The position numbers were made by a program, and so were the translations under genes. Positions 7,526 to 41,343 of a stretch of DNA of 64,000 nucleotides are shown one piece after another (position 1 is the stretch's first letter; the number at the start of each line of letters is the position of its first letter). This DNA is from Maribellus maritimus (GTDB lineage: Bacteria > Bacteroidota > Bacteroidia > Bacteroidales > Prolixibacteraceae). Location: NCBI RefSeq assembly GCF_022267315.1, contig NZ_JAIKLE010000008.1:1-64000 (forward strand), written 5' to 3'. The notes under the pieces are model-generated. The model searched no databases. It was not told the DNA's origin and saw only the letters and a list, made by a program, of their open reading frames with translations.

Positions 7526-10096
7526 ATGAAAACCTTTTTAGCGCTGTTACTGTCACTTATGCTGATAAACTCATCGTCAGCTCAGAAAATTAATCTTCCC
7601 TTTTTTGATGATTTTAGTAACAATTATGAAAATTGGATATCTTATTCTTTAACCGGCGACGAGCAATGGCATTTAAGTGGCGACGATGGGATTGATGGCG
7701 GAAAATGTGCCCGCTTTTATATCATGACTGATCCGCCACAAGCGAATGACGACTGGTTGGTTTCAAAAGCTTTCAACACGGAAGGCGTTTCAAATATTGC
7801 CATCGAATTCAAATTTTTATTTCATGGAGAAGGGATCAAACCAGAATTTTACTATTCAACTTCTTTTAACGGCGACGTTTCGGCAACTGACTGGACAGAA
7901 CTTGACAATCATTTCTGGAAAAATGAATGGTCATGGAGCGATGCCAGAATAGAAATCGAAACCCCTGGAAATTCTTTAATATTTGCGATCCGATATCAGT
8001 CTGCTACTGAAAATTCAAACTATATTTTGATTGACAATTTCAGGATTAAAGCTTTTGAACCGGTTGTTGTTGAAAAAGCCGGCGAAACCAACCATTTTGA
8101 ATTCTACAGCGACACCCCGGAAAATACTGATTACTGGATTGTGATAAAAGATGAGCTTGAAGAACAATATGAAAAATATGCCAGTTACTGGAATATTCCC
8201 GGGCTAAATGATTTTATCGCGGAGAATACAAAAACCAAAATTTATCTATTTGACCGGGAGAATATTAAACTCATCAATGAAGATACACCAGACTGGAAAA
8301 TGGGGTTTTTTGACTATGAATCAAAAAGTATTTATCTCGACAATTCGATCATGCAGACTTTTTCTGCCGATAACAATCGGTATTATGACGGGCTTAAGGG
8401 ATTAGCAATTCATTCTTACGCTGGTTATGCTATTCAGTTGCGACTGGATCGCGATGGTTCTGGGAATAGTTTACCGGATTATTTTGCTGAAGGATTTGGA
8501 CTTTATGAACAAGGGTATCGTCCTAACCGTGATTCAATAATCGCATTTAAAGAAAAACATCCGGAACCGTTAAATGGCAATAAACTTTCAGCTTTTAACA
8601 GCCTTACAAATACATCGGAAAAAGATATATCTGTAGCGTATATCGAATATCAGATTCTTTTATGTGGAGGCTACCGCAATTGTAACATGTGGTACTACGG
8701 CCCGCTGTCAGATACATGGAAAAATTTCCTCATATACTTTTATACTACTGACAACGAAGATGTTCAAATAAAAAAGTACGATGAAAGTGAAAATTTCGAT
8801 ATTTATTGTTCTTCGCGGGATACAATGTTTATCGACAGTATGAAAATCTGGCTTGAAAGGACACGAACTTTTTATATTGATTCCTTTGAAATGGACATCA
8901 ATGTGAAGTTTCCATTAGTTGTTGTTTATGACGAAAAAACCGGAATGGATTTAACGGGCTATGATGATTTTAACGGTGGCTCAGGGGGAATAAATATTTC
9001 TCCGCATCACTTTTGGGGCGGATTTGACGATGGCTACGATTGGCTTCTAGGGCATGAATTCGGGCATGTCTTTAACGAATTAATGTATTCTGCCATGCCT
9101 TCAGGGTTTTATCACGAAGGGATGGCAAATTTTTCCGGATATAATGTTGCAGGTGGCGAACATCTGGATGATCTGTGGAAAATTGAATATGTATTTAATT
9201 ATTACCAGAATAATTACAAGCGAACACCTACGTTAGAAGAAATTATTACAAATCCGGACGTAGGGAAAACGGGACTTGAATATGGAATTGACTGTTACTT
9301 TTTTGGTTTTGAATTTTTCAGGTACCTAAAAAAGGAAGAAGGTTATCCGAAAATCAAGGAATTTTTTGCTAACGGAATGGACTTTTCCGTTTTTAATAAT
9401 TCCTATGGCAACCTGGAAGAAGGATATATTGAGTACCTCAAATATCTGCATTCCTTAAGAGATTACAATGAACCATCGTTAACGGTAAATAACGGAATAA
9501 GTCTCGATCGCGGAGGTTCTTCTGTAATATACTCATCAAATCTGGATGCAACAGATCAGGAAGTTTCTGATGATAAATTATATTTCAAAATCACAACAAA
9601 ACCAACCTACGGGCATCTTGAAAATATTGAAAATCCAGGTTTTGCTATTTCAAAATTTACCGAGAAGGATATTAAATCCGGCGTTATCAAATATACAAAC
9701 GACAGTACTTTTGCCACGTCGGATTGTTTCATCTTCACCTTAACAGATGAAACATGGTTTGTCGACAATAAGCGGTTCAATATTACATTATCAACACCAA
9801 CTGCAATAAATGAATTTCAATCAGATACACAAAACAAGTTCAGTATTTACCCAAATCCATTGACGAGCGAATCCGTCATTTCTTTCCAAACTAAAACCAG
9901 TGGAAAAGTAAACTTGTCAATTTTTGATTTACAGGGAAGAAAAATAGCCACTTTACTCAACAAAAACCTTAATTCAGGAATACACTTGGTTTCCGTTTCA
10001 AATTCGCTACCGGCCTGTGGCGTATATTTCTGTAAACTGCAAACGAAGGCAGGTATATTAACTGAAAAAGTAATTATTGGCATTAATAAAAACTAA
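7526..10096 (+). CDS. Secreted T9SS metalloprotease-like protein with duplicated gluzincin domain
   Basis: 856 residues. A signal peptide (MKTFLALLLSLMLINSSSAQ) precedes a beta-sandwich region resembling a choice-of-anchor/jelly-roll domain (about 21-175). The C-terminal protease domain has HEFGH at 510-514 and a Glu at 531 in a HEGMANF motif, the HExxH...E zinc signature of gluzincins of the peptidase-MA type. A similar but decayed copy precedes it: HSYAG at 296-300 where HExxH is expected, followed by LPDYFAEGFGLYEQG with Glu322. A further beta domain leads to a T9SS sorting domain starting FSIYPNPLTS. Predicted secreted or surface-bound protease; substrate unknown. Its paralogue starts just after it. 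Confidence 0.75.
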   Translation: MKTFLALLLSLMLINSSSAQKINLPFFDDFSNNYENWISYSLTGDEQWHLSGDDGIDGGKCARFYIMTDPPQANDDWLVSKAFNTEGVSNIAIEFKFLFHGEGIKPEFYYSTSFNGDVSATDWTELDNHFWKNEWSWSDARIEIETPGNSLIFAIRYQSATENSNYILIDNFRIKAFEPVVVEKAGETNHFEFYSDTPENTDYWIVIKDELEEQYEKYASYWNIPGLNDFIAENTKTKIYLFDRENIKLINEDTPDWKMGFFDYESKSIYLDNSIMQTFSADNNRYYDGLKGLAIHSYAGYAIQLRLDRDGSGNSLPDYFAEGFGLYEQGYRPNRDSIIAFKEKHPEPLNGNKLSAFNSLTNTSEKDISVAYIEYQILLCGGYRNCNMWYYGPLSDTWKNFLIYFYTTDNEDVQIKKYDESENFDIYCSSRDTMFIDSMKIWLERTRTFYIDSFEMDINVKFPLVVVYDEKTGMDLTGYDDFNGGSGGINISPHHFWGGFDDGYDWLLGHEFGHVFNELMYSAMPSGFYHEGMANFSGYNVAGGEHLDDLWKIEYVFNYYQNNYKRTPTLEEIITNPDVGKTGLEYGIDCYFFGFEFFRYLKKEEGYPKIKEFFANGMDFSVFNNSYGNLEEGYIEYLKYLHSLRDYNEPSLTVNNGISLDRGGSSVIYSSNLDATDQEVSDDKLYFKITTKPTYGHLENIENPGFAISKFTEKDIKSGVIKYTNDSTFATSDCFIFTLTDETWFVDNKRFNITLSTPTAINEFQSDTQNKFSIYPNPLTSESVISFQTKTSGKVNLSIFDLQGRKIATLLNKNLNSGIHLVSVSNSLPACGVYFCKLQTKAGILTEKVIIGINKN

Positions 10097-10097
10097 A

Positions 10098-12302
10098 ATG
10101 AGAAAATATTTACCTGTACTAATCGCATTTCTGCTTATAAATGTAATAAATGCGCAGGAACTTCCTTTTTCTGACAATTTTGAAAATGATATTGACGGCT
10201 GGACCTTACAAAATACAATTTCTAATACACAGTGGTACTGGAATAACGAAGAAGGTTTCGAAGGCACGAACAGTGCAAGTTTTACCTTAAATTTAATAAA
10301 ACCATACGACGTTAATGATGCTTGGTTTGTGACATCTGAAATAAATACTGATGCAAGTTCACACGTAAAAATTAAATTCAAATATATGCGTTGGGGCGAT
10401 TATTTAAGCCCTCAACTTTATTATACCTATAATTTTACCGGTGATGTGGAAACAACTGAATGGAATGAAATTCAGGGTATTCCATGGGGGACCGATGTGC
10501 TTGATTATTATGATATTCCGGCGCTGGAAATTGAGACGCCCGGAAACAAATTCTGGTTTGCCTTCCGATATCAGACAACTGAAGATAAGGCGGCAGCATT
10601 TTATGTCGATAATTTTAGCATTGGCAGTTACATTCCTCCGGCACCTTTCATTTTGGTGGGTGAAGCAGAACATTTTGAGTTTTACACAAATATTTCAGGT
10701 GAGGAAGATTTCTATTTAACGATTCAGGACAATCTTGAAGAACAATATGATAAGCTAAGTTCTCTTTGGAACAGGCCTGGTATTGAGGACATTTTTAAAG
10801 AATCTGACAAAATCAAGGTATATTATTCAGCAAAAAATGATATTTATTTAGCAGAAGAAGAAACTCCCGGTTGGAAAAGCGGTTTTCATAACCCCGAAAA
10901 TCTTGAGCTCTTTTTATCGCCGTTAACAAATTCAAGTCAGTTAGATTATTACAGTACTCTTGCAGGTCTGGCTGTAAATGAATTTTCGCAATTAGCCGTA
11001 TCAAAAAAACTTCTAAGAGATAATTGGTCAGACCTGCCCTCTTATTTTTTAGAAGGATTTGGGTTGTACGAAACAGGCTTTCGTCCACGAAGGGACTCGA
11101 TTACAAAATACATCGACGAAAACCCAGCAACAAACTTTGATTTCGCAACAGATACTTCTGGTATAAGTAATACTCTCAAAAAGGATTTTATTGTCAGCTG
11201 TGTTGAGGGGCCCTTACTTTCAGGGGGGAGTTATCTGGGTATTGGTCCGGTGCATTCATCCTGGCTTCATAATCAACTTTCCATATACCTAAAATATTTT
11301 TATACCGAACCAGAGAATCAAAGAATAAAGTTACAGCTCACTACACCCGATTTCGATTTTTACGGTGCAACATCGGATTCCAGTCATTTTTCCGAGCTTG
11401 TATCTTATTTTGAAGATGCATATTCATTTTATATTACCAATTACAATTTTAAACCCAAACATCGTTTCAAAGTAGTCATTGTACCAACAGAACCAATTGG
11501 AATGGATATACTGAATTACGACGACTATTTTAACGGTGGCGTAGGTTGCGGAGGAGATTTAGTCATTCAGCTTTCTCCTAATTATAATTTCGATCAGGAA
11601 ACATATGATAAGTATTACGCCAATACCAGTTCTCATGAGTTTTTTCATGTTTATTACAATCATTTTATGTGGGAAATCCCCGGTGGTTTTTGGGCTGAAG
11701 GAAGTGCTGATTTTAGTGCAAGACATGCTCTGGAGGCAGATATACACCGCGAGCGTTTTTGGATGATTGAATGGACATTCGATAAATATGCAAAAAAATA
11801 CAATGTTGAACTCGATCTGGAACATATTAGTACAAATCCGAACCTTGAACTTGATATTTATTATTTAGGAGACTTGTTTTTTGAGTTTCTATACCAAAAC
11901 TATGGAGGATATGAAAATATTAAAAAATTCTTTAATCAGGGAATGGATTATTCAGTTTTTGGCACTACTTATGAGGAAATCGATACCGGATATATTAACT
12001 ATTTAAAATCGCTGGCCGGAATTGCAACAAAGACAGATTTAGCCAAAAATTCATCTTCAAACAATCTCAGCTTAATTTTAACAGATGAATTTCACCTATC
12101 CTTTCAAATCCCAACAAGTGGAAGGGTTAATCTCTCCGTTTTTGATATTCAGGGGCGAAAAATTTGTACTTTAATTGATAAAAAACTCAGTGCAGGAAAA
12201 CATATCGTATCGCCCAACAACCCAATGATTGTCAATGGAACATATATATACAAACTAACAACTTCGAAAAACAGTTCGGTATTAAAATTTATAAAAAACT
12301 AA
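10098..12302 (+). CDS. Secreted metalloprotease-like protein, paralogue of the preceding gene
   Basis: The ATG at 10098 starts a signal peptide (MRKYLPVLIAFLLINVINAQ) one base after the previous stop codon; an in-frame start at 10077 would overlap that gene and is less likely. The 734-residue protein repeats the plan of its neighbour: beta-sandwich, a decayed gluzincin copy (NEFSQ at 294-298, LPSYFLEGFGLYETG with Glu319), then the intact copy with HEFFH at 513-517 and Glu534 in FWAEGSADF. The extra beta domain seen before the sorting region in the neighbour is absent. The end resembles a T9SS domain (SGRVNLSVFDIQGRKI...GTYIYKL) but lacks the usual YPNP opening. A strong terminator follows, so both genes probably form one transcript. 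Confidence 0.75.
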   Translation: MRKYLPVLIAFLLINVINAQELPFSDNFENDIDGWTLQNTISNTQWYWNNEEGFEGTNSASFTLNLIKPYDVNDAWFVTSEINTDASSHVKIKFKYMRWGDYLSPQLYYTYNFTGDVETTEWNEIQGIPWGTDVLDYYDIPALEIETPGNKFWFAFRYQTTEDKAAAFYVDNFSIGSYIPPAPFILVGEAEHFEFYTNISGEEDFYLTIQDNLEEQYDKLSSLWNRPGIEDIFKESDKIKVYYSAKNDIYLAEEETPGWKSGFHNPENLELFLSPLTNSSQLDYYSTLAGLAVNEFSQLAVSKKLLRDNWSDLPSYFLEGFGLYETGFRPRRDSITKYIDENPATNFDFATDTSGISNTLKKDFIVSCVEGPLLSGGSYLGIGPVHSSWLHNQLSIYLKYFYTEPENQRIKLQLTTPDFDFYGATSDSSHFSELVSYFEDAYSFYITNYNFKPKHRFKVVIVPTEPIGMDILNYDDYFNGGVGCGGDLVIQLSPNYNFDQETYDKYYANTSSHEFFHVYYNHFMWEIPGGFWAEGSADFSARHALEADIHRERFWMIEWTFDKYAKKYNVELDLEHISTNPNLELDIYYLGDLFFEFLYQNYGGYENIKKFFNQGMDYSVFGTTYEEIDTGYINYLKSLAGIATKTDLAKNSSSNNLSLILTDEFHLSFQIPTSGRVNLSVFDIQGRKICTLIDKKLSAGKHIVSPNNPMIVNGTYIYKLTTSKNSSVLKFIKN

Positions 12303-12311
12303 CTTTTAACA

Positions 12312-12349
12312 AAAAGGCCCGGAACCATCTCTTTGGTTCCGGGCCTTTT
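12312..12349. terminator. Strong bidirectional terminator
   Basis: A perfect 16-base stem (AAAAGGCCCGGAACCA pairing with TGGTTCCGGGCCTTTT) around a 6-base loop, starting 9 bases after the stop of the second protease-like gene. The A and T runs at the stem ends let it work on both strands; it also lies just past the minus-strand gene ending at 12372. Confidence 0.92.
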
Positions 12350-12371: not shown

Positions 12372-12686
12372 TTATCGATCATTGCCAGATCTCCATGAAC
12401 TTCCAGAGTGGCTATGACTATTATTATTCTTTTGGTCAGATTTCCATGGTCCCTTTGACCGTTGTTGATTTTGGTGGTAATACTGTTGCTGATAATTGTT
12501 ACTGGTCCGCCCTCTTTTGGCAGAAGGGGAACAAGCCTGCGCTTTTTGACTATTCATTAAAATCATCATTGTTGTTGCAGACGCGGCAATTAATCCTGTT
12601 TTTTTGATGGCTTCCTTTCGAGAAATCTTTTTTCCCTCCAAAAGTTCGCCTTCATTTTCTACTAAACCTTCATTTTTCTCTTTCAT
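12372..12686 (-). CDS. Small exported-leader protein, possible modified-peptide precursor
   Basis: 104 residues. An acidic N-terminus (MKEKNEGLVENEGELLEGKK) is followed by ISRKEAIKKTG and a hydrophobic stretch (LIAASATTMMILM) ending SQKAQA, a Tat-like or Sec-like leader with Arg-Lys in place of twin Arg. The remaining ~50 residues are low-complexity, rich in Asn, Gln, Ser, His and aromatic residues, with a single Cys just after the leader. Gene-length leaders of this kind in front of short polar tails occur in Bacteroidota near PqqD/HprK-type genes. It is divergent from the PqqD-HprK gene at 13569 and separated by 882 bases, so a precursor role is an inference. No function recognised. Confidence 0.6.
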   Translation of the reverse strand: MKEKNEGLVENEGELLEGKKISRKEAIKKTGLIAASATTMMILMNSQKAQACSPSAKRGRTSNNYQQQYYHQNQQRSKGPWKSDQKNNNSHSHSGSSWRSGNDR

Positions 12687-13568
12687 AATTTTTACGTTTT
12701 TAAATTAACATTTATAAACTGATAATACTAAGTACGAAGTATTTTGATATATTTATATCGTTGCGAATTCCGTTAGAATCTCTGAGTTAACTCTTCTTTC
12801 TACTATAGAAGAAGCTATATTGCATCCAAAATATTTGTAATTAAACAAAACTGCGGTTTGTATCGGTCCACACCAAATAAAAATTCGCTGTTAAAAACTG
12901 ATTGGGTTAGCTTGCATAAAAAAGGAAAAAATAGGATTGATGAGAGTAGAGGTATCCCCTTAGTCACCCACATAAATGTGACGATAACAGATTCTAAAAT
13001 TCCAATGCCGAAAATTTACAAATAATTAAGTTTTCTCACAAAAGAAAAAGAAGTATATTTAACAATAATCAACAGGAGCCAATCATTTACAACGTCAAAA
13101 TACTACTGTTTTACAACAACTTACCATTCAAAATAAAACATCTATTTTTTTAAACATATTCTCAATTTGAGAAAAATTTTCCACAAACAGGACAGTGTTT
13201 CTAAATAAAAAATTAATGGGAGATATTTTCAAAAAATATAAATAAAGCCACTGTGTTTTAAAAAAAAAGCCTCTAATCCGTTAAGTATTTCTGAAAAGTA
13301 AATGAAAAGTCCTAAAACGTCAACGAGCCATACAAACCATAAATAACTCCAAAATTCTAATTATAGAAATAGAAATAAATATTTTTCTGAAATGCACAAA
13401 TATTCCATTTAAATTCTGTATACGAAATCAAACCCGGAATTCGACAGAACAAAAATACCGTCTTTCTGGTTTTATTTATTTAACAAAAGCCTTTGGCTAA
13501 ATTAGGATCTGACAAATAATTTATATATTTAATAAATCTGTTTTTTGTAATTACTTAGAATACCTTCA
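12687..13568. other. 882-base AT-rich intergenic region
   Basis: No convincing open frame was found on either strand. It must hold the promoters of the two divergent genes that flank it. Two perfect short palindromes are visible: GAGTTAACTC at 12784-12793 and TTCTCAA-T-TTGAGAA at 13159-13173. Neither has a T-run, so they are more likely protein-binding sites than terminators. No canonical -33/-7 pair was located in front of 13569. Confidence 0.5.
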
Positions 13569-14708
13569 ATGACCAACGTTCAGTTTGTAAAAAAGAAAAT
13601 CGGGACATCCTATCTTATATGGTTTAAAGAAAGCAACTTGTACTACCAATTTGAAGAACCGGTCTGGTATGTTTTTGAAAGGTTGGTAAAAAATAATACA
13701 ACCCGGGAAATTGCAAGCGGATTCTCAGAACAATATGATTTAAACTTTGAAGAAAGTTTAACTTTTGTAAACGATGTGCAAACTAAAATCAGCGAACTCA
13801 ACCAAAAAGATATTTCGCTGGAAAACAACTTACCCCTGCTGCCGAACTTAAACGGATTCAAATATAAAGCTTACGTAACACACAATTATATAATAGGAGA
13901 TAAACCGCTTCGGTTTTCTTTCGAGACCGACTGGCTCGAAAATTATGTACACCCGCTAATAGAACATCTAAAAGAGGAAACAGGGGAAGCTTATTCGAAT
14001 CATTTTGAACTTTTCACGTTCGACGACCGAGTTGTATTCCGTCACAATGGGATAGTAAAAGGAAATTGGAATGATAATGAAAGTCATTTAACAAAAGGAA
14101 AAGTTTTTATGACCTTGGTAAACACCATTTATGACAAAACGGATACTGACTGGCTAATGACAGTTCACGCATCAGCCCTGACCAATGGAAAAAAAACGAT
14201 ATTGTTTTCAGCACCTCCCAACAGTGGCAAAACTACGATAGCAGCCTTGCTGCATACAAGAGGTCTGAAGTTAATTTCTGACGATTTTGTTGCAGTAGAC
14301 CGGGATTCCTTCAACGCATATCCATTTCCTTCGGCCATGTCCGTTAAAGAGAAATCAACCGATTTATTAAAACCCTTTTTCCCGTTGTTGGAAGACAAAA
14401 AACTCAACTATATTACCGAGGAAAAAAGTGTCAGGTATCTGCCACTGGAAAATAATACTTCGATGATATTTCCGGTAAAAGAATTTGTATTTGTGAAATA
14501 CGACAAGGAAGTTGAATTCGAATGGAATAAAATGGATACACTGGATGCAATAAAACTGTTGCTTGAACAAACCTGGGTAGCTCCAACATTTCGAAATGCA
14601 GAAATACTTTTTGACAGGGTAGAAAAATCTTCTTTTTTTCAGCTTACATACAGTAACAATGAAAAAGCGCTTCAAACCATAAAACAACTATTTGATTATG
14701 AACAATAA
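13569..14708 (+). CDS. PqqD-like domain fused to HprK-related kinase
   Basis: 379 residues. The first ~80 residues (from FVKKKIGTSYLIW through WYVFERLVKNNTTREI) match the fold pattern of PqqD-like peptide chaperones that hold precursor leaders. The C-terminal half carries a P-loop, SAPPNSGKTT, with Lys221 and Thr222, then SDDFVAVDRD with Asp238 and Asp239, as in HPr kinase/phosphorylase-related proteins. HprK relatives in lasso-peptide clusters phosphorylate a Ser of the precursor, whereas free-standing HprK acts on HPr; no HPr gene is nearby. Its stop overlaps the next gene by 11 bases, which argues for tight translational coupling. The fusion of both parts in one chain supports a peptide-directed kinase; the substrate is unknown. 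Confidence 0.75.
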   Translation: MTNVQFVKKKIGTSYLIWFKESNLYYQFEEPVWYVFERLVKNNTTREIASGFSEQYDLNFEESLTFVNDVQTKISELNQKDISLENNLPLLPNLNGFKYKAYVTHNYIIGDKPLRFSFETDWLENYVHPLIEHLKEETGEAYSNHFELFTFDDRVVFRHNGIVKGNWNDNESHLTKGKVFMTLVNTIYDKTDTDWLMTVHASALTNGKKTILFSAPPNSGKTTIAALLHTRGLKLISDDFVAVDRDSFNAYPFPSAMSVKEKSTDLLKPFFPLLEDKKLNYITEEKSVRYLPLENNTSMIFPVKEFVFVKYDKEVEFEWNKMDTLDAIKLLLEQTWVAPTFRNAEILFDRVEKSSFFQLTYSNNEKALQTIKQLFDYEQ

Positions 14709-15855
14709 AGAGTTGTTTTATTTTGCAGGACGATGTTTAGCTCTTGACAAAAATCCGGAATCGAGGCAATACATTATTAACAAATGCACCGATGAGCACT
14801 TCGACTGGCAGGCATTTATACATCTCTGCAGTGACCAATTAATACTTCCTCCTGTGTGGGTAAAGTTTCAAAATCATAAAATAATCGAATATGTACCTGA
14901 TGAAGTAAAAGATCATCTTTTTGAGATTTATAAATTAAACAGGCTGCGGAATGAGAATATTATTCATCAAATTATAGAAATAACAAGGGTACTAAATGAA
15001 AACGGAATTCAACCTTTGTTTTTAAAAGGTGCAGCAAATTTACTCGATAACATTTACATGGATATTGGAGAACGGATTTTGGCTGACATTGATTTTTTAA
15101 TTCATGAAAAAGAATTTCTAACCGCTGCAAAAATTTTGGAAGAGGCAGGTTACTCGATTGTAGAAGATACCACTGATTATTCAGAATATGAAGAAATTAC
15201 CGAATTAAAACATTATCCCAAGCTTCTGCACCCGGATTTTGATGCTGTCATTGAAATCCATCGCATACCTGTTGAAGAAAAATATTCAGACTGGTTTAAT
15301 TCCGGGATGATATTTAAAAAGAAAAAAAAGCAGGAAAGTGCAGCAGGTTATTTTGTACCTTCTGACGATCACAAAATCATACATAATTTTATCCACAGTC
15401 AACTTTCCGACGAAGGTTATTTGTACGGGATCATATCTCTTCGGGAAAGTTACGATTTACTCCTGCTCTCCAATAGATGTCCTGTTGATACTACTTTATC
15501 AGAAATAAAAAAGAAAAAAACCGCAACTGCGTATTTCACGATGGCTTTTATCATTCTGGGGATAAACCAATCATTTTCATTTCCCTCAAAAAGAGATATT
15601 GCATTTTGGTTACTTTGGTGTAAACACACCTTGAATCTAAAATCTGCAACATTCTACCATATTCTCAGAAGTTCCATTTTTATAGGCCAGAGAATATTTA
15701 AAGGTTATCTCGGCCGACCTGTCAGAGCAATATATAGTAAAAGTGAAAGAAAGGCTTTTACAAATCGTTTACGGAGTCCTCAATGGCTGCAAAATCATTT
15801 GTCGTTATACACCCATTTTTTTAAAATTGGGAAAAAAAATTCGAAGATCAACTAA
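14698..15855 (+). CDS. Nucleotidyltransferase-fold protein (NTP_transf_5 type)
   Basis: The ATG at 14698 gives 385 residues; an upstream TTG at 14692 is less likely. The protein has FLKGAANLL with Lys110-Gly111, then ERILADIDFLIH with Asp130 and Asp132, the KG...R..DiD pattern of the uncharacterised nucleotidyltransferase family. A later His-containing IEIHRIP segment also fits. Proteins of this family accompany HprK-related kinases and PqqD-like proteins in peptide-modification loci and occur in lasso-peptide clusters next to the precursor kinase. Start overlaps the kinase gene by 11 bases. The likely reaction is nucleotidyl or nucleotide-derived transfer to a peptide or its phosphate; this is inference. 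Confidence 0.75.
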   Translation: MNNKELFYFAGRCLALDKNPESRQYIINKCTDEHFDWQAFIHLCSDQLILPPVWVKFQNHKIIEYVPDEVKDHLFEIYKLNRLRNENIIHQIIEITRVLNENGIQPLFLKGAANLLDNIYMDIGERILADIDFLIHEKEFLTAAKILEEAGYSIVEDTTDYSEYEEITELKHYPKLLHPDFDAVIEIHRIPVEEKYSDWFNSGMIFKKKKKQESAAGYFVPSDDHKIIHNFIHSQLSDEGYLYGIISLRESYDLLLLSNRCPVDTTLSEIKKKKTATAYFTMAFIILGINQSFSFPSKRDIAFWLLWCKHTLNLKSATFYHILRSSIFIGQRIFKGYLGRPVRAIYSKSERKAFTNRLRSPQWLQNHLSLYTHFFKIGKKNSKIN

Positions 15856-15894: not shown

Positions 15895-18042
15895 TCATTC
15901 TACAATTTCCATTTCTTCAAGCAGATAACCTGCTCCGGCAAATTTTTCGATAATAAAAAGTGCATAACGAATGTCAAGTGTAATGTTGCGACACATTTCC
16001 GGATCATACATAATATCACTCATTGTTCCCTCCCAGCAACGATCGAAATTTAAACCAATCAGCTCTCCCTTTGCATTAATAACAGGGCTTCCTGAATTTC
16101 CGCCTGATGTATGATTGGAAGCCGTAAAACAAACGGGCACATCGCCATTTACTTCGTATTTGCCAAAATCTTTCTCCCTAAATAATTCTTTTAGTCTCTC
16201 AGGGACATCGTAGTCATAAATCTCCGGATTATCTTTTTTCATAATCCCGGAAAGTGTTGTGCAATATTTGTATTTAACTCCATCGAAAGGTTCGTAACCT
16301 TCTACTTTTCCGTAAGTAACCCGCAATGTAAGATTAGCATCCGGATACAAAGGTTTGTTACTTTGCATTTCCATAATGCCAGCCATATAAATTTTCATAT
16401 TCCTGTCGATGTTCTCCTTCAGCGTATCGACAATAGGTTTTATTTTGACATTATAATAAAAATTCAGCGTTCTTGCCATCGTTATCAGAGGGTCTTTCCG
16501 CAGTTTTAACAGCTGTTTTTCGTTTCCTGTGGCAAGTAACTCTGCCAACGTTTCCTTTTCAGTAAGTATTGATTTCCGGTATACCTTTTTAAGCAATTTT
16601 TCTTTGTCATTTTTATTCATCAATTTCTGAAAATCATAAGGCAGGAATTCCGGATCCAATTCGTCTTTTAAAAGTGGTAGTAATTCACTAAACAATTTTT
16701 CATCAACAGTCTGATTAAAATCTTTGAAAAAAGAATCGAGACTCTTCTCCATATCCAATTTCAAACTTTCAACACGTTCAGGTTGGTCACTTTCAATGTT
16801 ATTAACAATAGCGTTTGCCATTGTTGCCAGTTTAAAAATGTCGGGACCGCGCAAAACAATTTCAGAATAATAATCCGACGCTTTTATAAACCGTTGATAC
16901 TGATCATAAAGCACCTCGAAATCATTAAAAACAGGCTGATACATCGTTTGCCATGTTGAATTTTTCTCAGCCCAGTTTTTAAATTCTTCTTCAAATTCCA
17001 TTTTTTTATGTACAGCATCCAAACGTTGCAGTCCTTTTATTTCTCCCTGCCATTTTTTCCATGCATTACTAATACCCTGATATTTGGCTGAATACTGAAT
17101 TCGAACTTTGGGGTCCTTTTCCATGGCTGCCCCTATAATTTGCAGCTTTATATCTCTCAACTTTATTCGATCGGGGTCCCGCTGATTCATAATAATATCA
17201 ACTTCCTGATGCGGAACGTATTGCTGCGTGCTTCCGGGATTTCCAAAAACCATGGTAAAATCACCGGGCTGAATTCCTTTTATCGAAATCGGCAAAAACT
17301 TTTTAGGCTTGAAAGGAACATTATCCTGAGAGTATTCTGCCGGTTCGTTGTTCGCGTCGGCATAAATCCGGAACACAGAAAAATCGCCGGTATGGCGAGG
17401 CCACATCCAATTGTCGGTATCACCTCCAAATTTGCCAATAGCCGAAGGTGGTGCGCCTACCAAACGAACATCAGTGTAAGTTTTGTATACGTACAAAAAA
17501 TACTGATTGCCATAGAAAAGAGGTTTTACCTGTGCACGGTACTTGTTTTCCCCGGAAGCATCTGTTTCGATTCGGCCACAATTTCGCTGAATAACTTCAA
17601 CTTTTTTTTCTTCAGAAAGGCCTTCTGTATTTTCTAATACTTCGTCAGTAACATCTTTCATATATTCCAGAAAACGAACAGTCAACCCAGGATTGGGCAG
17701 TTCTTCGCCTTTGTTCATAGCCCAAAAACCGTTGGTTAAAATATCATTTTCCACGGAACTGTGTGATTGAATTTGACGGTATCCGCAGTGATGATTGGTA
17801 ATTAGCAAACCTTCCTCCGAGATTAATTCGCCAGTACAACCACTGCCAAAAATAACTACAGCATCTTTCATGCTGGCATGGTTCACATCGTATATATCCT
17901 GTGCAGTGAGTTTAAATCCCATTTGCTGCATTTCTTCAATATTGTACTTTCCGAGCAATGTAGGAATCCACATTCCTTCTTTTGCTGAACCAATCAGGGA
18001 GATAAAAAGAAATAAGAAAACAAAACCGAATAACTTCCTCAT
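15895..18042 (-). CDS. S46 family dipeptidyl-peptidase, DPP11-like (Asp/Glu specificity)
   Basis: The ATG at 18042 opens a signal peptide (MRKLFGFVFLFLFISLIGSA), giving 715 residues, close to the ~720 of known DPP7/DPP11. The Ser-protease triad is visible as His85 in TNHHCGY, Asp220 in PRHTGDFSVF and Ser650 in GGNSGSPV. Eighteen residues after the catalytic Ser is Arg668 (GLNFDRCWEG), the position where DPP11 has Arg and DPP7 Gly; the Arg in DPP11 selects Asp or Glu at P1. The enzyme removes dipeptides from peptide N-termini in the periplasm. It starts 83 bases downstream of the GH92 gene on the same strand and may be its operon partner. Confidence 0.92.
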   Translation of the reverse strand: MRKLFGFVFLFLFISLIGSAKEGMWIPTLLGKYNIEEMQQMGFKLTAQDIYDVNHASMKDAVVIFGSGCTGELISEEGLLITNHHCGYRQIQSHSSVENDILTNGFWAMNKGEELPNPGLTVRFLEYMKDVTDEVLENTEGLSEEKKVEVIQRNCGRIETDASGENKYRAQVKPLFYGNQYFLYVYKTYTDVRLVGAPPSAIGKFGGDTDNWMWPRHTGDFSVFRIYADANNEPAEYSQDNVPFKPKKFLPISIKGIQPGDFTMVFGNPGSTQQYVPHQEVDIIMNQRDPDRIKLRDIKLQIIGAAMEKDPKVRIQYSAKYQGISNAWKKWQGEIKGLQRLDAVHKKMEFEEEFKNWAEKNSTWQTMYQPVFNDFEVLYDQYQRFIKASDYYSEIVLRGPDIFKLATMANAIVNNIESDQPERVESLKLDMEKSLDSFFKDFNQTVDEKLFSELLPLLKDELDPEFLPYDFQKLMNKNDKEKLLKKVYRKSILTEKETLAELLATGNEKQLLKLRKDPLITMARTLNFYYNVKIKPIVDTLKENIDRNMKIYMAGIMEMQSNKPLYPDANLTLRVTYGKVEGYEPFDGVKYKYCTTLSGIMKKDNPEIYDYDVPERLKELFREKDFGKYEVNGDVPVCFTASNHTSGGNSGSPVINAKGELIGLNFDRCWEGTMSDIMYDPEMCRNITLDIRYALFIIEKFAGAGYLLEEMEIVE

Positions 18043-18125
18043 AAATAAAACTGTTGATTTTAACGGTTTACAAATTGAAAAAAATCCTAAATAATAAACT
18101 ATGATTTTAAACAAGATCCTGAACC

Positions 18126-35395: not shown

Positions 35396-37975
35396 TTACC
35401 GGATTATTGTATTAAACAGCAATTTAAAAGTAGCGTCGGTTTGGTTTCGGTGTTGTGTACGAAAACCGATCAGCACAACTTCACCCTCGCCGTATTTGAC
35501 ACTCAGCATGGCCTGTTTTTTTGCTACAGTCTTCTCCCCGATCAACCATCCGCTTTTCAGCAAACTTTTATCTTTATAGCGCACAATGGTAGTATAATCA
35601 TCATTATGTCTTCCGGGAACTACTTCAAATGCCGGACTTGAGAAATTAAGAACCACTCCTTCATCGGGCATTCCATATGCCAGAGGCTGCGTATTATCAA
35701 AATCTACTTTTAAAGTTGAGCCAGGGCAAAACCACTCTATTGATTTTAAACCGTTTGTAACATCCGTAACTTTTAAATTAAACGCGTCAGCGGCAAACTC
35801 AAACGAATTCCCAAAAGCAACAAGAGTTCCTCCGTTTTTTACATACTCCTTCAAAGCCTCGGTACCTTCTTTATCAATTCCGCTTCTGTATTTTTCGGGA
35901 TATTCCTCTGCCTCCTGTTTATTTTGTCCTTTCAAATCTCCGGTAATGGCTTCTGCCCTGTCGTTGGGCAAAACAATTACATCGTACTTTTTATTCAGGC
36001 TACCTTCTTTAATCTCTTCGCTCATCAATGTTGTGTAGTCAAACCCAAAATTTTCAAAACACAAACGGGTCCAGCCTTCATCCATATTTCCGCCGTAATA
36101 ACGTTGAAATAAGCCTGTTCTTCCCCGCTTCACCGTATGTATCTTTTCCTGTTCAATTTTGTTAAGCGGTAAAAAGCTAAGACCTGCTTTTTCTGCTATT
36201 TCATTTAATTTTTCTGCGGGTGCTTTTTCAATAATAAAATCTCCGGGATGCAATCCTTCAAATGCTTTATCTACTCTTTTTATCTGAATTTTTTCGTTTT
36301 GTAATAAGTTAACTACCAGAAAAGCCGCATTTTGTTTCCCGTCAATCCAGTATCCTGAATTTCCTTTTTCCACTGTCCCAGGAACATTTTCCAGTTCCTG
36401 CAAAATGGGAAAATCTGATATTAAATCGGAATGCAAGCCCTCTACATTTACCCCCATAAATTCGTACATGGTATGTGTGGCCAAATCGTATGGCCGGTAA
36501 GGAACTCCATTTTCACTTCGTGTCCATGAGTTATCAGCGTAATGTGTTTCGGTCAACAGATTTTTGATAAGTCCCATCTTTGGTTGTGCCAGTGAAATAA
36601 CATAAGATCCCGCTCCAAAAACACGATTTTCGGCTACAAATTGTTTGTTTGCCTTTTTTATCTCCAAACCGGATTGTAGCAATTTGTTGATCATTTTCGT
36701 TGCCGTCAGATAATCATGTTGTTCAGCCGGAATCACCAGGGTTTTGACATTATCTTCAGCCCCTCGTTTTGTTTGATTCTGCGCTTTTATAACTGCCGTT
36801 TTTAATACGGTTTCTTTGTTTCTCGCCGCTAAATCAAGAATAGACCAGGCCGATGATTTTTGTTGCGCAACAATATTACGCAAATGCCACCAGCCACCGG
36901 GCCATGGGTTTGGAAAAGTAGACTGGGCTTCATATTCAGGGAATCCGCGTGTATTGGCTCTCAACTGCTCAGGATGCACATAAACAGGTGTAGCATAATT
37001 TGCTGTCGCCGATTCAGTAAGCATTCCGGCGATATTATGAAACGGAGTTATCCAGTGCCAGCCAAAATGTCCCCAGCCTGCGTACTGTGCAGCGTTCAAC
37101 ACTCCCTGAAAACCATCCTCTTCCAGTTTGTAAGCAATGTGCGCGCCATACCAGCTTAATTCCCTCCAAACCAGCGGATCAGCATAAGGACGAATCGGGT
37201 CGCAATAAGGCGGCACATAAAACCGTGCCCCGTATGAACCCATATGATGATGATCCACATATGCCTGCGGTTGCCAGTCGACATACATAGCCTTTGCCAT
37301 ATACCTTGATTCCTGCAGGTTTAAATAGTCTCCGTCGCGGTTATTATCATGGCCGCAATATTTGTGATAAAGATAAGGCATACTCAACCCTTCATACTCC
37401 GTTCCCACGGTTTCATTGTACCAGTCGGTAATCATCACCTGTCCGTCGGGGTTAAAACAGGGAACCATAAAAAACAACACATTATCTAAAATCCGTTGGG
37501 TTTCTTCATCATCCTTTGTAAGCAAATCATAAGCCAGTTCAGGACTCATTTGCGTCCCTCCCACTTCGCTGGCATGTAAACTCATCGATTCAAAAATAAC
37601 AGCCTTCCCTTCTTTTATATATGTTTTCAGCGAATCCTCAGAAACACCTCGCGGATCGCTTATCTTTTTGTTGATGGTTTGCAGTCTGTCAAGGTTTGTC
37701 ATGTTTTTAGATGAAGAGATCAGCAAAAGTAAAAACGGGTGTCCTTCGGAAGATGGCCCTAGATTTGTCACTTTTATTTTGTCGCTCTGTTTCTCCAGCT
37801 CGTAAAAATAATTCACAATTTTATCCCAACGGGCCAGCTTATAATCAGCTCCCATCTGAAAGCCAAAAAATTCCTCTGGCGAAGTAATTTTATTTTGCGC
37901 AATTGCACTAAAAGTATTCAGCACAAAAACAAAAATTAGAAATAAAAAGACTGGCGTTTTTAAATGATTTTTCAT
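35396..37975 (-). CDS. Secreted M14 family zinc carboxypeptidase
   Basis: The ATG at 37975 opens a signal peptide (MKNHLKTPVFLFLIFVFVL), giving 859 residues. The zinc site is H134-A-S-E137 in SLHASEVGGTQ, with CGHDNNRDGDY and DHHHMGSYGARFYVPP downstream for the third ligand and substrate pocket. A Glu-rich LTESATANYA may hold the catalytic base. The last third resembles a class I glutamine amidotransferase-like domain (NGGTLVAFGNSFEFAADAF). Such enzymes trim peptides in the periplasm or outside the cell. Single gene on the minus strand. Confidence 0.88.
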   Translation of the reverse strand: MKNHLKTPVFLFLIFVFVLNTFSAIAQNKITSPEEFFGFQMGADYKLARWDKIVNYFYELEKQSDKIKVTNLGPSSEGHPFLLLLISSSKNMTNLDRLQTINKKISDPRGVSEDSLKTYIKEGKAVIFESMSLHASEVGGTQMSPELAYDLLTKDDEETQRILDNVLFFMVPCFNPDGQVMITDWYNETVGTEYEGLSMPYLYHKYCGHDNNRDGDYLNLQESRYMAKAMYVDWQPQAYVDHHHMGSYGARFYVPPYCDPIRPYADPLVWRELSWYGAHIAYKLEEDGFQGVLNAAQYAGWGHFGWHWITPFHNIAGMLTESATANYATPVYVHPEQLRANTRGFPEYEAQSTFPNPWPGGWWHLRNIVAQQKSSAWSILDLAARNKETVLKTAVIKAQNQTKRGAEDNVKTLVIPAEQHDYLTATKMINKLLQSGLEIKKANKQFVAENRVFGAGSYVISLAQPKMGLIKNLLTETHYADNSWTRSENGVPYRPYDLATHTMYEFMGVNVEGLHSDLISDFPILQELENVPGTVEKGNSGYWIDGKQNAAFLVVNLLQNEKIQIKRVDKAFEGLHPGDFIIEKAPAEKLNEIAEKAGLSFLPLNKIEQEKIHTVKRGRTGLFQRYYGGNMDEGWTRLCFENFGFDYTTLMSEEIKEGSLNKKYDVIVLPNDRAEAITGDLKGQNKQEAEEYPEKYRSGIDKEGTEALKEYVKNGGTLVAFGNSFEFAADAFNLKVTDVTNGLKSIEWFCPGSTLKVDFDNTQPLAYGMPDEGVVLNFSSPAFEVVPGRHNDDYTTIVRYKDKSLLKSGWLIGEKTVAKKQAMLSVKYGEGEVVLIGFRTQHRNQTDATFKLLFNTIIR

Positions 37976-38134
37976 AATGATGGATTTTAGAGAAGCTGAT
38001 TTGGTATAAAAATAAACATATTTCTGAAAACCTTGTAAAATCCTTTCTTTCTTTAATAAGCTGTTAACATCGTTTAAAATCAATATTCAGCTTCGAAAAA
38101 AAATCGTAACTTACTGACAACTAATAAAAATACA

Positions 38135-39657: not shown

Positions 39658-41343
39658 ATGAACGACGATAAAAAGATTATTTTTTCAATGTATAAGGTGA
39701 GTAAAATTTACCCACCCAACAAAACTGTTATAAAAGATATCTCCCTTTCATTTTTTCTGGGTGCCAAAATTGGCATCATCGGGTTAAACGGTTCAGGTAA
39801 ATCAACGCTGTTACGAATTATTGCCGGACAAGACAAAGCCTTTAACGGTGAACTGGTTTTTGCTCCCGGCTATTCGGTAGGTCTGCTGGAACAAGAGCCC
39901 AGGTTGGATGAATCAAAAACCGTAATTGATGTGGTAAAAGAAGGAATGCAGGAAACGGTGGATGTTCTGAACCGCTACGAGGAAATCAACCAGCTTTTTG
40001 GCTTACCGGAGGTATACGAAAATCCGGATGAAATGGATAAGTTGATGGGAGAACAGGCACAACTTCAGGAAAAAATTGACCAGTTGGATGCCTGGAACCT
40101 CGACAGCAAACTGGAACGCGCTATGGATGCATTGCAATGTCCTCCGGATGATCAGCCCATAGGCGAACTTTCCGGTGGAGAACGTCGGCGGGTAGCGCTG
40201 TGCCGGTTGTTGCTGAAAGAACCTGATGTATTGCTCCTCGATGAACCCACTAACCACCTGGATGCCGAGAGTATTCAGTGGCTGGAAATGCACCTTGCAC
40301 AATATTCAGGAACAGTGATCTGCATCACCCACGATCGGTATTTTCTGGATAATGTAGCCGGATGGATACTCGAACTCGACCGCGGACAGGGAATTCCATG
40401 GAAAGGAAATTATACTTCGTGGCTGGAACAAAAATCAAAACGTTTGGAACAGGAAGAAAAGGGCAGCCAAAAACGAAAAAAGACGCTGGAACGTGAACTG
40501 GAATGGGTACGCATGGCACCGAAGGCACGTCATGCAAAATCAAAAGCCCGTTTAAGTGCTTATGATAAAATGTTAAATGAAGATGTAAAACAAAAAGAGG
40601 AAAAGCTTGAAATCTTTATTCCCAACGGGCCACGACTGGGAGATAAAGTTATTGAAATGGAAGGCGTAAAAAAAGGTTATGGCAACCGCATTTTGTTTGA
40701 CGATCTGAATTTCAAACTGCCGCCTGCAGGAATTATCGGAATAATTGGGCCCAATGGAGCGGGAAAAACTACGCTGTTTAAACTGATTATGAAACAACTG
40801 GAAGCCGATGCCGGAAAAATTGAGATTGGCGACACCGTCAAAATCAGCTATGTAGACCAGACACATGCAGCCATTGATCCAAACAAATCGGTTTTTGAAG
40901 TTATCTCCGGAGGAACTGAAACCATGATGCTGGGGACCCGGCAGGTCAATTCACGGGCCTATGTTGCACGCTTCAATTTTACAGGTTCCGACCAGGAAAA
41001 AAAATGCGGTGTACTTTCCGGTGGAGAAAGAAACCGACTGCATCTGGCTCTGGCGCTTAAAGCCGAAGGAAATGTGCTGCTGCTTGACGAACCAACCAAC
41101 GATATTGATGTAAATACTTTGCGTGCACTGGAAGAAGGTTTGGATAATTTTGCAGGCTGTGCCGTTGTGGTTTCCCACGACCGCTGGTTTCTCGATAGAA
41201 TTGCTACTCACATTCTGGCTTTTGAAGGGGATGGAAATGTGTATTATTTTGAAGGTTCATATACGGAATACGAAGAAAACCGCAAAAAACGCCTCGGCGA
41301 TGAAGGCCCCAAACGGATAAAATATAAAAAACTAAAAGAGTAG
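39658..41343 (+). CDS. ettA: ABC-F protein EttA, energy-dependent translational throttle
   Basis: 561 residues, near the 555 of the E. coli protein. Two ABC domains lack membrane segments: the first has GLNGSGKSTLLR, LSGGERRRVALC and LLLDEPTNHLDA; the second has GPNGAGKTTLFK, LSGGERNRLHLA and LLLDEPTNDIDV. The arm between them is Lys/Glu-rich (KRLEQEEKGSQKRKKTLERE). EttA binds the ribosome E site and gates entry into elongation according to ATP/ADP. Single gene with its own promoter. Confidence 0.95.
   Translation: MNDDKKIIFSMYKVSKIYPPNKTVIKDISLSFFLGAKIGIIGLNGSGKSTLLRIIAGQDKAFNGELVFAPGYSVGLLEQEPRLDESKTVIDVVKEGMQETVDVLNRYEEINQLFGLPEVYENPDEMDKLMGEQAQLQEKIDQLDAWNLDSKLERAMDALQCPPDDQPIGELSGGERRRVALCRLLLKEPDVLLLDEPTNHLDAESIQWLEMHLAQYSGTVICITHDRYFLDNVAGWILELDRGQGIPWKGNYTSWLEQKSKRLEQEEKGSQKRKKTLERELEWVRMAPKARHAKSKARLSAYDKMLNEDVKQKEEKLEIFIPNGPRLGDKVIEMEGVKKGYGNRILFDDLNFKLPPAGIIGIIGPNGAGKTTLFKLIMKQLEADAGKIEIGDTVKISYVDQTHAAIDPNKSVFEVISGGTETMMLGTRQVNSRAYVARFNFTGSDQEKKCGVLSGGERNRLHLALALKAEGNVLLLDEPTNDIDVNTLRALEEGLDNFAGCAVVVSHDRWFLDRIATHILAFEGDGNVYYFEGSYTEYEENRKKRLGDEGPKRIKYKKLKE

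Follow-up and report, generated by a model that had tools for sequence, protein, structure and literature searches.

Members of a conserved family of small proteins sharing one leader go together with a kinase that bears an RRE/PqqD-fold domain and behind which a PF14907 nucleotidyltransferase (NTase) is mostly encoded. One such locus lies in the window, a 64,000-nucleotide stretch of the Maribellus maritimus genome (contig NZ_JAIKLE010000008.1, positions 1 to 64,000), and is likely a RiPP-like peptide-maturation module whose kinase–NTase pair phosphorylates and then decorates the small protein. Many marine and related bacteria have the same partnership, in most cases accompanied by a large cell-surface protein; our literature searches found no description of it. 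The locus comprises the following features:

12316–12345, no strand: GC-rich hairpin between the small gene and the convergent T9SS gene, a possible shared terminator (read from the sequence)
12372–12686, minus strand: small protein of 104 aa with a leader, the predicted precursor peptide (ORF; dN/dS against the same-genus genome G031; family search)
12534–12686, minus strand: leader, residues 1–51, with KKISRKEAIKKTG, a hydrophobic stretch, a basic c-region, and an AQA cleavage-like site (alignments)
12375–12533, minus strand: core or tail, residues 52–104, beginning CSPS, with Ser53 as the predicted phosphorylation site (Ser at +2; analogy with LppK)
12687–13568, no strand: divergent intergenic region of 882 bp, presumed to hold the promoters of both transcripts (comparison with G031)
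13569–14708, plus strand: PqqD-like (RRE) domain and HprK-related kinase in one chain, 379 aa (AlphaFold model, PDB matches, alignments)
13569–13814, plus strand: PqqD-like leader-binding domain, about residues 1–82 (bbb-aaa in the model; match to TbiB1, 5v1u and 5v1v)
14148–14705, plus strand: HprK-like kinase core, residues 194–379, with P-loop K221 and D238/D239 (HprK/P matches; invariant residues)
14698–15855, plus strand: PF14907 NTase, overlapping the kinase by 11 bases (Pfam match; invariant residues)

The coordinates and reading frames of the three proteins given in the original prediction proved correct on ORF and sequence checks, as did the 11-base overlap of the kinase gene by the NTase ATG at 14698; a TTG upstream, at 14692, is also in frame. 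Comparison of the small ORF with G031 yielded a dN/dS of 0.105 over 103 codons, indicating a real gene. The intergenic region 12687–13568 matches that of G031 at 704 bases (80%), has no Rfam match, and contains promoter-like sites no more frequently than shuffled sequences; scans of the locus with Rfam and a promoter/terminator search returned nothing above chance. The hairpin at 12316–12345 is absent from the list produced by the terminator scan, and in its G031 counterpart the outermost pair is lost and one pair is changed on both sides.

In its AlphaFold model (pLDDT 88.7, pTM 0.86), the protein appears as a lasso-B1-like leader-binding domain joined to a kinase of HprK/PEPCK fold, and the model and its PDB fold matches bear out the earlier proposal that a PqqD-like domain and an HprK-related kinase are fused in one chain. 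Residues 6–79 are modeled as bbb-aaa, the three-strand, three-helix winged-helix fold of lasso B1 proteins, and this part matched leader-bound TbiB1 (5v1u_B) with a target TM of 0.74, an rmsd of 2.0 over 77 columns, a Foldseek E of 0.012, and a probability of 1.00; for the TbiB1 structures 5v1u and 5v1v, target TM ranged from 0.72 to 0.76 at modest Foldseek E values (0.012 to 0.056). The PqqD-like match rests on Foldseek, since VIA-align barely tests that part of the kinase. HprK/P structures matched the model from residue 194 or 196 to 379 with Z of 11.7–12.4 (Z 12.4 corresponding to an rmsd of 2.5 over 124 residues), and the residues originally named, K221, D238, and D239, are invariant in sets of 21 and 50 kinase sequences, each including that of the window.

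Sequence libraries recognize this protein weakly. A PqqD domain is named by none of the Pfam and NCBIfam matches of the window kinase, and PF05402 matched 2 of 21 kinases (best E 0.0093), neither of them that of the window. The window kinase scored 64 bits against TIGR04352 (HprK_rel_A) and 13 bits against TIGR04355, both with a cut-off of 200, and 11.1 bits against the HPr(Ser) kinase family PF07475 (gathering cut-off 33.3), with which it shares the fold; none of the HprK families among its listed matches was matched above threshold. At E up to 1, all 21 scanned kinases matched TIGR04352 and TIGR04355, and 8 matched ScmC (TIGR04249); searched by sequence against the PDB, the kinase profile gave no match at 0.01. 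The NTase is a member of PF14907 (NTP_transf_5; E 9.1e-34, 117.6 bits against a gathering cut-off of 31.2), the only match to this family in the window genome, and its residues K110, G111, R126, D130, D132, E186, and H188 are invariant in 17 sequences including that of the window. Among 80 named loci, 63 have the NTase immediately 3′ of the kinase, with a median overlap of 14 bases (first-start ORFs). Since the other 17 lack an NTase directly downstream, and 7 loci of relatives (L061, L064, L065, L070, L071, L072, and L075; L059 was set apart, as its contig ends there) have a kinase with no adjoining NTase, the NTase step is not universal.

The original prediction cast the small minus-strand protein as the partner of the enzyme pair, and recurrence of the small gene beside the pair across Bacteroidota had been set beforehand as the test. 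Among 120 related genomes, 21 encode both the kinase and a member of the small family, 3 the kinase only, 1 the small protein only, and 95 neither (Fisher p 3e-19, kinship ignored). Three partial or divergent kinase matches (G079, G099, and G110; E 7.4e-24 to 1.1e-6) were dropped from these counts, as were 3 weak small-protein matches in longer frames (G046, G100, and G108; E 2.9e-4 to 6.7e-4), leaving the small family in 22 of the 120 genomes; G071 was retained, its best single-sequence kinase match being 2.6e-22 but its frame full-length and its profile match 1e-120. In a phylum-wide sample of 296 genomes, with weak matches discounted (partial kinase matches at E 3.5e-15 or weaker in 28 genomes, small-protein matches at E 1.2e-3 to 8.8e-3 in 10), 4 genomes, including that of the window, have both, 292 have neither, and none has one without the other. 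The pair is thus not widespread without the small gene: a kinase with no detected small gene was found in G018, G025, G028, and G428, and a small gene with no kinase in G036.

Used as a single, location-blind query, the window small protein found profile-confirmed matches in 17 other genomes, in 14 of which match and kinase share a contig and are no more than 5 kb apart. At 50 of 74 assessable named loci, the small gene is located at most 1.5 kb upstream of the kinase; five contigs, judged by their length, are represented twice among the loci (L103/L066, L104/L069, L107/L075, L108/L060, and L109/L074). Eighteen of the 24 named kinase loci with no small gene nearby were covered by a genome-wide search (which left out L105, L138, L160, L169, L180, and L181), and 17 of these 18 genomes have small genes elsewhere; at L138 and L169, the small gene lies further upstream on the same contig. 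These 18 genomes encode a single kinase in 17 cases and two in G425, and about ten small genes are possible in a genome with one kinase. Co-occurrence, both in cis and in trans, extends over two lineages, namely the Prolixibacteraceae with their relatives and the Flavobacteriaceae. Taken with the adjacency, these patterns uphold the proposed partnership and support the small protein as the putative substrate or precursor of the kinase–NTase pair, the chemistry being inferred.

The window small protein has no Pfam or NCBIfam match, and its 22 relatives yielded weak, scattered NCBIfam matches (best E 0.0047). The family shares a leader of the form ISRKEAIKK.G (also ITRKEALKK.G), followed by a hydrophobic stretch and an AxA site; R23, A26, and G31 are invariant in an alignment of 23 sequences, whereas among 39 sequences R23 and A26 remain invariant and G31 is conserved in at least 90%. 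The pattern [ST]R[KR]xA[ILV][KRQ] occurs in 101 of 112 distinct small proteins, a set that includes near-copies and one truncated frame (L144), with RK at the twin-residue position in 110 and RR and RN in one each, and a basic c-region (K or R within the 8 residues preceding the cleavage-like site) in 102 of 107. The Tat consensus is [ST]RRxFLK, and a basic c-region in a signal serves to avoid Sec. The window genome encodes TatC, and the leader looks like a Tat-like export signal with a cleavage site, use of Tat itself being unproven; the AxA cleavage sites are pattern matches.

Set against this common leader, the cores are variable and mostly 10–12 residues long (53 in the window). Of 100 short cores, 95 have Ser at position +2 after AxA, and so does the core in the window, where Ser53 is the predicted phosphorylation site by analogy with LppK; the assignment is weakened within the clade of the window, because four of its six proteins (L054–L057) do not have Ser at +2. 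The single Cys that had drawn attention originally is present in the window protein but is not a family feature: Cys occurs in 10 of the 112 distinct small proteins, on which ground its role as the modified residue was rejected. A lipoprotein reading of AQAC was likewise rejected, Cys being found at that place solely in the window and G031. The likeness of the leader to an export signal with a cleavage site, the conserved Ser, and the T9SS partner of most relatives had been overlooked in the original prediction.

The loci fall into 2 types. In most relatives (type I), the small gene lies about 20 bp behind that for a large protein secreted by the T9SS, whose C-terminal region is conserved, an association seen for 59 of 61 small genes in named loci and 39 of 39 in loci L269–L306 (neighbors of in-trans small genes were inspected for L269–L298). 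Type II, the clade of the window, is monophyletic and comprises six genomes with a divergent gene order and a 42–53-residue tail; the kinase and small protein remain together, and the search for the T9SS module gave no strong match in the six genomes. The module is not exclusive to the system, since G002, G010, and G013 have strong module proteins (E 7.7e-131 to 2.2e-133) and neither a small gene nor a kinase detected, and G345 has twelve module matches against one small gene. The T9SS neighbors in the window, 7526–10096 and 10077–12302, were rejected both as module bearers (E 5e-4 with the module HMM for the former; no match at 0.01 for the latter) and as a fixed partner, having BLAST relatives beside the small gene of G031 and none at the loci of G056, G058, G069, and G070. 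The module model (pLDDT 75.4, pTM 0.58) gave clean but short fold matches to T9SS C-terminal domains (8gl6_D and 8qb1_A) and DUF3244 proteins (4g5a_A), with no match pointing to a function.

The small protein is probably phosphorylated and then decorated by the enzyme pair, and the following route can be envisaged. The PqqD-like domain would bind the leader in the cytoplasm, the HprK-like kinase would phosphorylate the Ser directly after the AxA site (Ser53 in the window), and the NTase would add a second group to the phosphoserine, either a nucleotide or, by way of a nucleotide, a sugar. Export of the modified protein would follow, directed by the leader in its second role as a Tat-like signal, and signal peptidase I would free the core. 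In type I, the released peptide would be about 10 residues long and encoded directly behind its dedicated partner, the large T9SS surface protein; in type II, this partner is absent, and the long hydrophilic tail of the small protein itself may take its place. We further suggest, more tentatively and with rather less than even confidence, that these loci represent an undescribed class of phosphorylated, perhaps glycosylated or nucleotidylated, Bacteroidota RiPPs, whose synthesis in the cytoplasm uses a leader with a second role as export signal. Each peptide of about 10 residues would belong to one T9SS-secreted surface protein, as its dedicated partner, ligand, or prosthetic tag, and one kinase would serve up to about ten of them per genome, the clade of the window having dropped the surface protein and lengthened the peptide.

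The tight coupling to the T9SS gene could also be taken to mean that the small protein is no modified product but a membrane or periplasmic accessory of the surface protein, its export regulated by the pair, for example by phosphorylation of the leader: the tie of the small gene to the T9SS gene (59 of 61; 39 of 39) is closer than its tie to the kinase gene, often found in trans, and the hydrophobic stretch could remain as an anchor. We consider this unlikely, given that the most constrained core residue is the Ser right after the cleavage-like site, that type II keeps the kinase and small protein with no strong module protein found in its six genomes, and that the PqqD-like fold is a leader-binding fold in RiPP systems. 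It is highly improbable that the pair acts on another substrate (a lipid, a sugar, or an HPr-like protein) and that the small gene is linked by regulation or hitch-hiking; the four kinase genomes with no detected small gene would fit such a scenario, but kinase and small gene co-occur in two lineages, in cis as well as in trans, which together with the leader-binding fold argues against it.

True membership of the window locus in the linear polyphosphorylated peptide (LPP) or lasso phosphopeptide families is scarcely credible, being already contradicted by the defining features tested, even though the enzyme pair is the same (an HprK-like kinase and an NTP transferase) and a Ser adjoins the cleavage site. 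A Pfam scan of 27 window proteins gave no lasso macrolactam cyclase, and no B2 protease was found on the contig (at E 0.001 or better, PF13471 matched once in the genome, on contig C168), so a lasso peptide was rejected, in keeping with the original view that the product would be another kind of modified peptide. The RRE-like domain sits in the kinase chain instead of being discrete, [YW]xxP is present in the first 45 residues of none of the 112 small proteins (the LPP motif is YxxPxVL), and the 27 proteins scanned, locus flanks included, yielded no discrete RRE, dedicated SpI-like leader peptidase, or MsbA-like exporter. The sole ABC_tran match among the scanned proteins, at 39658–41343, contains a pair of ATPase stretches and matches no membrane domain.

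If the maturation of the small protein by the kinase–NTase pair holds true, phosphorylated RiPPs extend beyond the Bacillota LPP and lasso families, one leader peptide acts as both enzyme-recognition element and export signal, and a modified peptide is linked to type IX-secreted surface proteins, for which our literature searches found no precedent. Cultured marine bacteria would then offer a 10-residue substrate on which to test the role of PF14907 NTases.

Several known systems offer comparisons. HprK-related kinases A and B (TIGR04352 and TIGR04355) and ScmC (TIGR04249) are matched weakly, and the kinase described here differs in that its chain starts with a PqqD-like domain. DAG-RiPPs, RiPP–lipoprotein hybrids with Bacteroidota among their hosts, likewise have a modified peptide co-opting a general export and processing pathway, but as far as they are described they rely on MNIO enzymes and the lipoprotein route, whereas a Tat-like signal and signal peptidase I are predicted here (PMC12636315). 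In lasso peptides of the paeninodin/pseudomycoidin type, a kinase acts on a precursor Ser, followed by the NTase homologue PsmN; for pseudomycoidin, the account indicates that this annotated NTase is responsible for hexoses on the phosphoserine, a host enzyme acting after nucleotidylation not being excluded (PMC9266682). The phosphorylated Ser is C-terminal in those peptides and predicted at core position 2 here, where the lasso cyclase and B2 protease are lacking and the leader contains an export-like signal (PMC9266682). Closest is the LPP system of Bacillota, in which, according to its description, LppK phosphorylates LppA at Ser3, a site mapped by experiment and lying directly behind the point of leader cleavage (AQS...) (Popov et al. 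2026, PMC13381572). As described there, the two systems share an HprK-like kinase, an NTP transferase, an RRE fold, the absence of a macrolactam cyclase, a conserved leader with a variable core, signal-peptidase-I-type cleavage (a pattern match here), and a Ser close behind the cleavage site, at position 3 in LPP and 2 here (PMC13381572). They differ, on the same account, in that LPP clusters have a discrete RRE, a YxxPxVL leader, and a dedicated SpI-like peptidase and MsbA-like exporter, whereas here the RRE-like domain is the kinase N-terminus, the leader is Tat-like, cores are mostly 10–12 residues, a T9SS partner is linked in most relatives, and the hosts belong to the phylum Bacteroidota (PMC13381572). 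The predicted mode of action thus resembles that of LPP, yet the locus departs from several LPP hallmarks, which points to a new variant of phosphorylated RiPP.

The genes in the window are arranged as the original prediction stated, including the 11-base overlap between the genes of the kinase and the nucleotidyltransferase (NTase), as the sequence and its open reading frames (ORFs) confirm:

12372-12686, minus strand: small protein, 104 aa
882 bp: spacer between the small gene and the kinase gene, which diverge on either side of it
13569-14708, plus strand: kinase, 379 aa, divergent from the small gene
ATG at 14698: NTase (PF14907), 11-base overlap with the kinase gene

The NTase is the single PF14907 match in the whole 7.3-Mb genome. 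The comparison with G031, a genome of the same genus, puts dN/dS at 0.105 (small gene), 0.085 (kinase) and 0.132 (NTase); judged from sequence, the small ORF is a real gene and a member of a family. An S46 family peptidase (15895-18114, minus strand) is convergent with the NTase gene, and three M14 zinc carboxypeptidase genes lie inside 23 kb (35396-38083, minus; 54213-56222 and 56225-57964, plus). Two related, T9SS-secreted proteins with choice-of-anchor J-like N-termini are encoded in tandem on the plus strand (7526-10096 and 10077-12302) and carry the HExxH motifs HEFGH and HEFFH; the second shares 35% identity with the G031 counterpart of the first and matches the DUF5700 zinc peptidases below cut-off. 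Both are putative secreted zinc peptidases.

Library scans of the kinase yielded 64 bits for TIGR04352 (cut-off 200), 11.1 for PF07475 (cut-off 33.3) and no match to any PqqD model. An AlphaFold model computed from a 50-sequence alignment was confident (pLDDT 88.7, pTM 0.86). In this model, residues 6-79 form 3 strands and 3 helices and match TbiB1, a lasso leader-binding protein solved with its leader (5v1u, 5v1v), with a target TM of 0.72-0.76, rmsd of 1.9-2.4 and E of 0.012-0.056, and HPr kinases align with residues 194-379 (Z 12.4, rmsd 2.5 over 124); PEPCK covers a larger part of the kinase (Z 14.6, rmsd 5.3 over 285). The TbiB1 and HPr kinase matches of the predicted fold bear out the reading of a PqqD-like and an HprK-related domain in one chain. 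G220, K221, T223, D238, and D239 are invariant in both the 21- and the 50-sequence kinase alignments. Two loci have kinase genes split over two frames (L179, from 9998; L080, 8956-9785), reflecting decay or sequencing errors.

To follow the small protein across genomes, we searched 120 related genomes with the window sequence as a single query, irrespective of location, and obtained matches in 20, the window's own included. After omission of G005 and G034, where the matches fell inside frames of >600 codons, 17 other genomes remained, 14 of which (G008, G011, G017, G019, G026, G031, G040, G056, G058, G059, G068, G069, G070, and G074) have the match and a kinase relative on one contig, no more than 5 kb apart; match and kinase are on different contigs in G021 and G022, and G036 has no kinase. 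A profile of 39 sequences, trained on kinase neighbors as the single query was not, placed the family in 22 of the 120 genomes (E 1.5e-14 or better; three weaker matches left out), and the kinase was found in 24 (three partial or divergent ones left out). Both occur in 21 genomes, the kinase alone in 3, the small gene alone in 1, and neither in 95 (Fisher 3e-19, uncorrected for kinship). Among 296 genomes drawn from the phylum, the 4 with a strong kinase match (E 3.2e-79 or better) are exactly the 4 with a strong small-protein match (G148, G207, G345, and the window's own, G000). The proposed partnership of the small protein with the kinase-NTase pair thus holds up across genomes.

A scan of species genomes with a kinase alignment provided 110 relatives, from which 80 loci were retained, mainly of Tenacibaculum and Polaribacter but also of Prolixibacteraceae and other Bacteroidota. 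The NTase directly follows the kinase in 63 of the 80, usually with an overlap of 11-38 bases (ORFs taken from the first start codon), and among the 74 loci whose upstream sequence was long enough, 50 have the small gene ahead of the kinase on the same strand and no more than 1.5 kb away. For the other 24, 18 genomes were searched whole: all contain the kinase (single copy in 17), and 17 have small genes elsewhere. One kinase seems, from these gene counts, to serve several peptides in trans, since single-kinase genomes carry many small genes: eleven matches, ten credible, in G423; eight, seven credible, in G427; and, in G207, six genes on contigs C1, C3, and C8, each preceded by a module protein gene, with the kinase followed by the NTase on C4. 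G427 also has, a short way upstream of its kinase (C32:121022), a weak hit (C32:120868-120927, E 6.8e-4) that covers the final third of the small-protein profile and may be what is left of a small gene since lost.

Of the 61 small genes at the named loci, 59 follow the gene of a large protein at a distance of 6-122 bp (median 24). These large proteins open with what looks by eye like a signal, vary in the middle and have in common a C-terminal region of ~500 residues (the module), the end of which is a T9SS type A sorting domain. The same order recurs in 39/39 cases of a second locus set (L269-L306). Among 17 loci of other relatives that are of type I, the form seen in most relatives, small gene and module gene are within 300 bp in 14; the module gene is 323 bp upstream in L079 and a few kb off on the opposite side in L058 and L072. 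Besides the small protein, the partner originally predicted, the T9SS protein is a further one, beyond what that prediction could see. A fold search with the predicted module structure assigned nothing beyond the sorting domain. Module proteins also occur outside the system: G013, G002, and G010 (L248, L249, and L250) encode strong ones with neither small gene nor kinase, each gene having another long frame behind it on the same strand. In G207, two module-small pairs lie close together (L299, 4998-5165 and 8209-8376; L302, 5992-6147 and 11495-11650), an arrangement also seen in L109, L114, L127, L134, L135, L137, and L151; module gene and small gene seem to be duplicated together.

The window, G031, G056, G058, G069, and G070 form one kinase clade (type II; support 100/100). 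In all six, the small gene and the kinase gene point away from each other, and the small protein has a hydrophilic tail of 42-53 residues. No strong module protein was found anywhere in the six genomes; partial matches reach ~1e-45 in the window's genome and G031 and 4e-35 in G056, with none at 1e-20 in G058, G069, or G070. By gene content, the core of the type II system is therefore the kinase, the NTase, and the small protein, and the T9SS protein would have been either gained in type I or lost in type II, the kinase tree being unrooted.

Among 112 distinct small proteins, 101 carry the motif [ST]R[KR]xA[ILV][KRQ], after which come a hydrophobic stretch and then an AxA-like site; a fixed rule located the site in 107, and 100 of these have cores of at most 25 residues (typically such as QSPEAPGTGF, QSSTPSPGW, and TSPSAPTPWPGGF). 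These short cores have Ser at position 2 in 95 cases, Pro at position 3 in 73, and a final Phe or Trp in 86; the five without Ser at +2 have it at +1 or +3 once the next site along is used. The window core begins CSPS, with Ser at +2. The R-K-x-A-I/L-K leader motif, together with basic residues near the site (102/107), is Tat-signal-like, and TatC is present in the genome; because the position of the second Tat arginine is Lys in 110/112, we offer Tat export as a hypothesis. AQAC at the predicted mature start (12531-12542, minus strand), restricted to the window and G031, is lipobox-like as a weak possibility.

We found no published description of the system in literature on HprK-related kinases, NTases, PqqD, T9SS, Tat, Tenacibaculum, and RiPPs, covered mostly as titles and abstract openings and largely outside subscription journals; as far as searched, it is undescribed in print. 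The closest worked example, by analogy, is the pathway of the linear polyphosphorylated peptides (LPP) of Bacillota. In the LPP study, LppK phosphorylates Ser3 of a core starting AQS, a signal-peptidase-like enzyme cleaves the leader directly before this core, the precursor lacking phosphate is poorly cleaved, and the role of LppN is left open (PMC13381572); in pseudomycoidin, hexoses on phosphoserine are attributed to PsmN (PMC9266682). Checks of the window locus found no discrete RRE, no dedicated peptidase or exporter, and no YxxP leader, and because of this we do not assign the system to LPP. Beyond gene linkage, predicted folds, and conservation, we infer every chemical step: by analogy with these pathways, the PqqD-like domain would hold the leader, the kinase would phosphorylate the Ser that follows the AxA site, the NTase would extend the phosphate, and export with signal peptidase I would set the peptide free.
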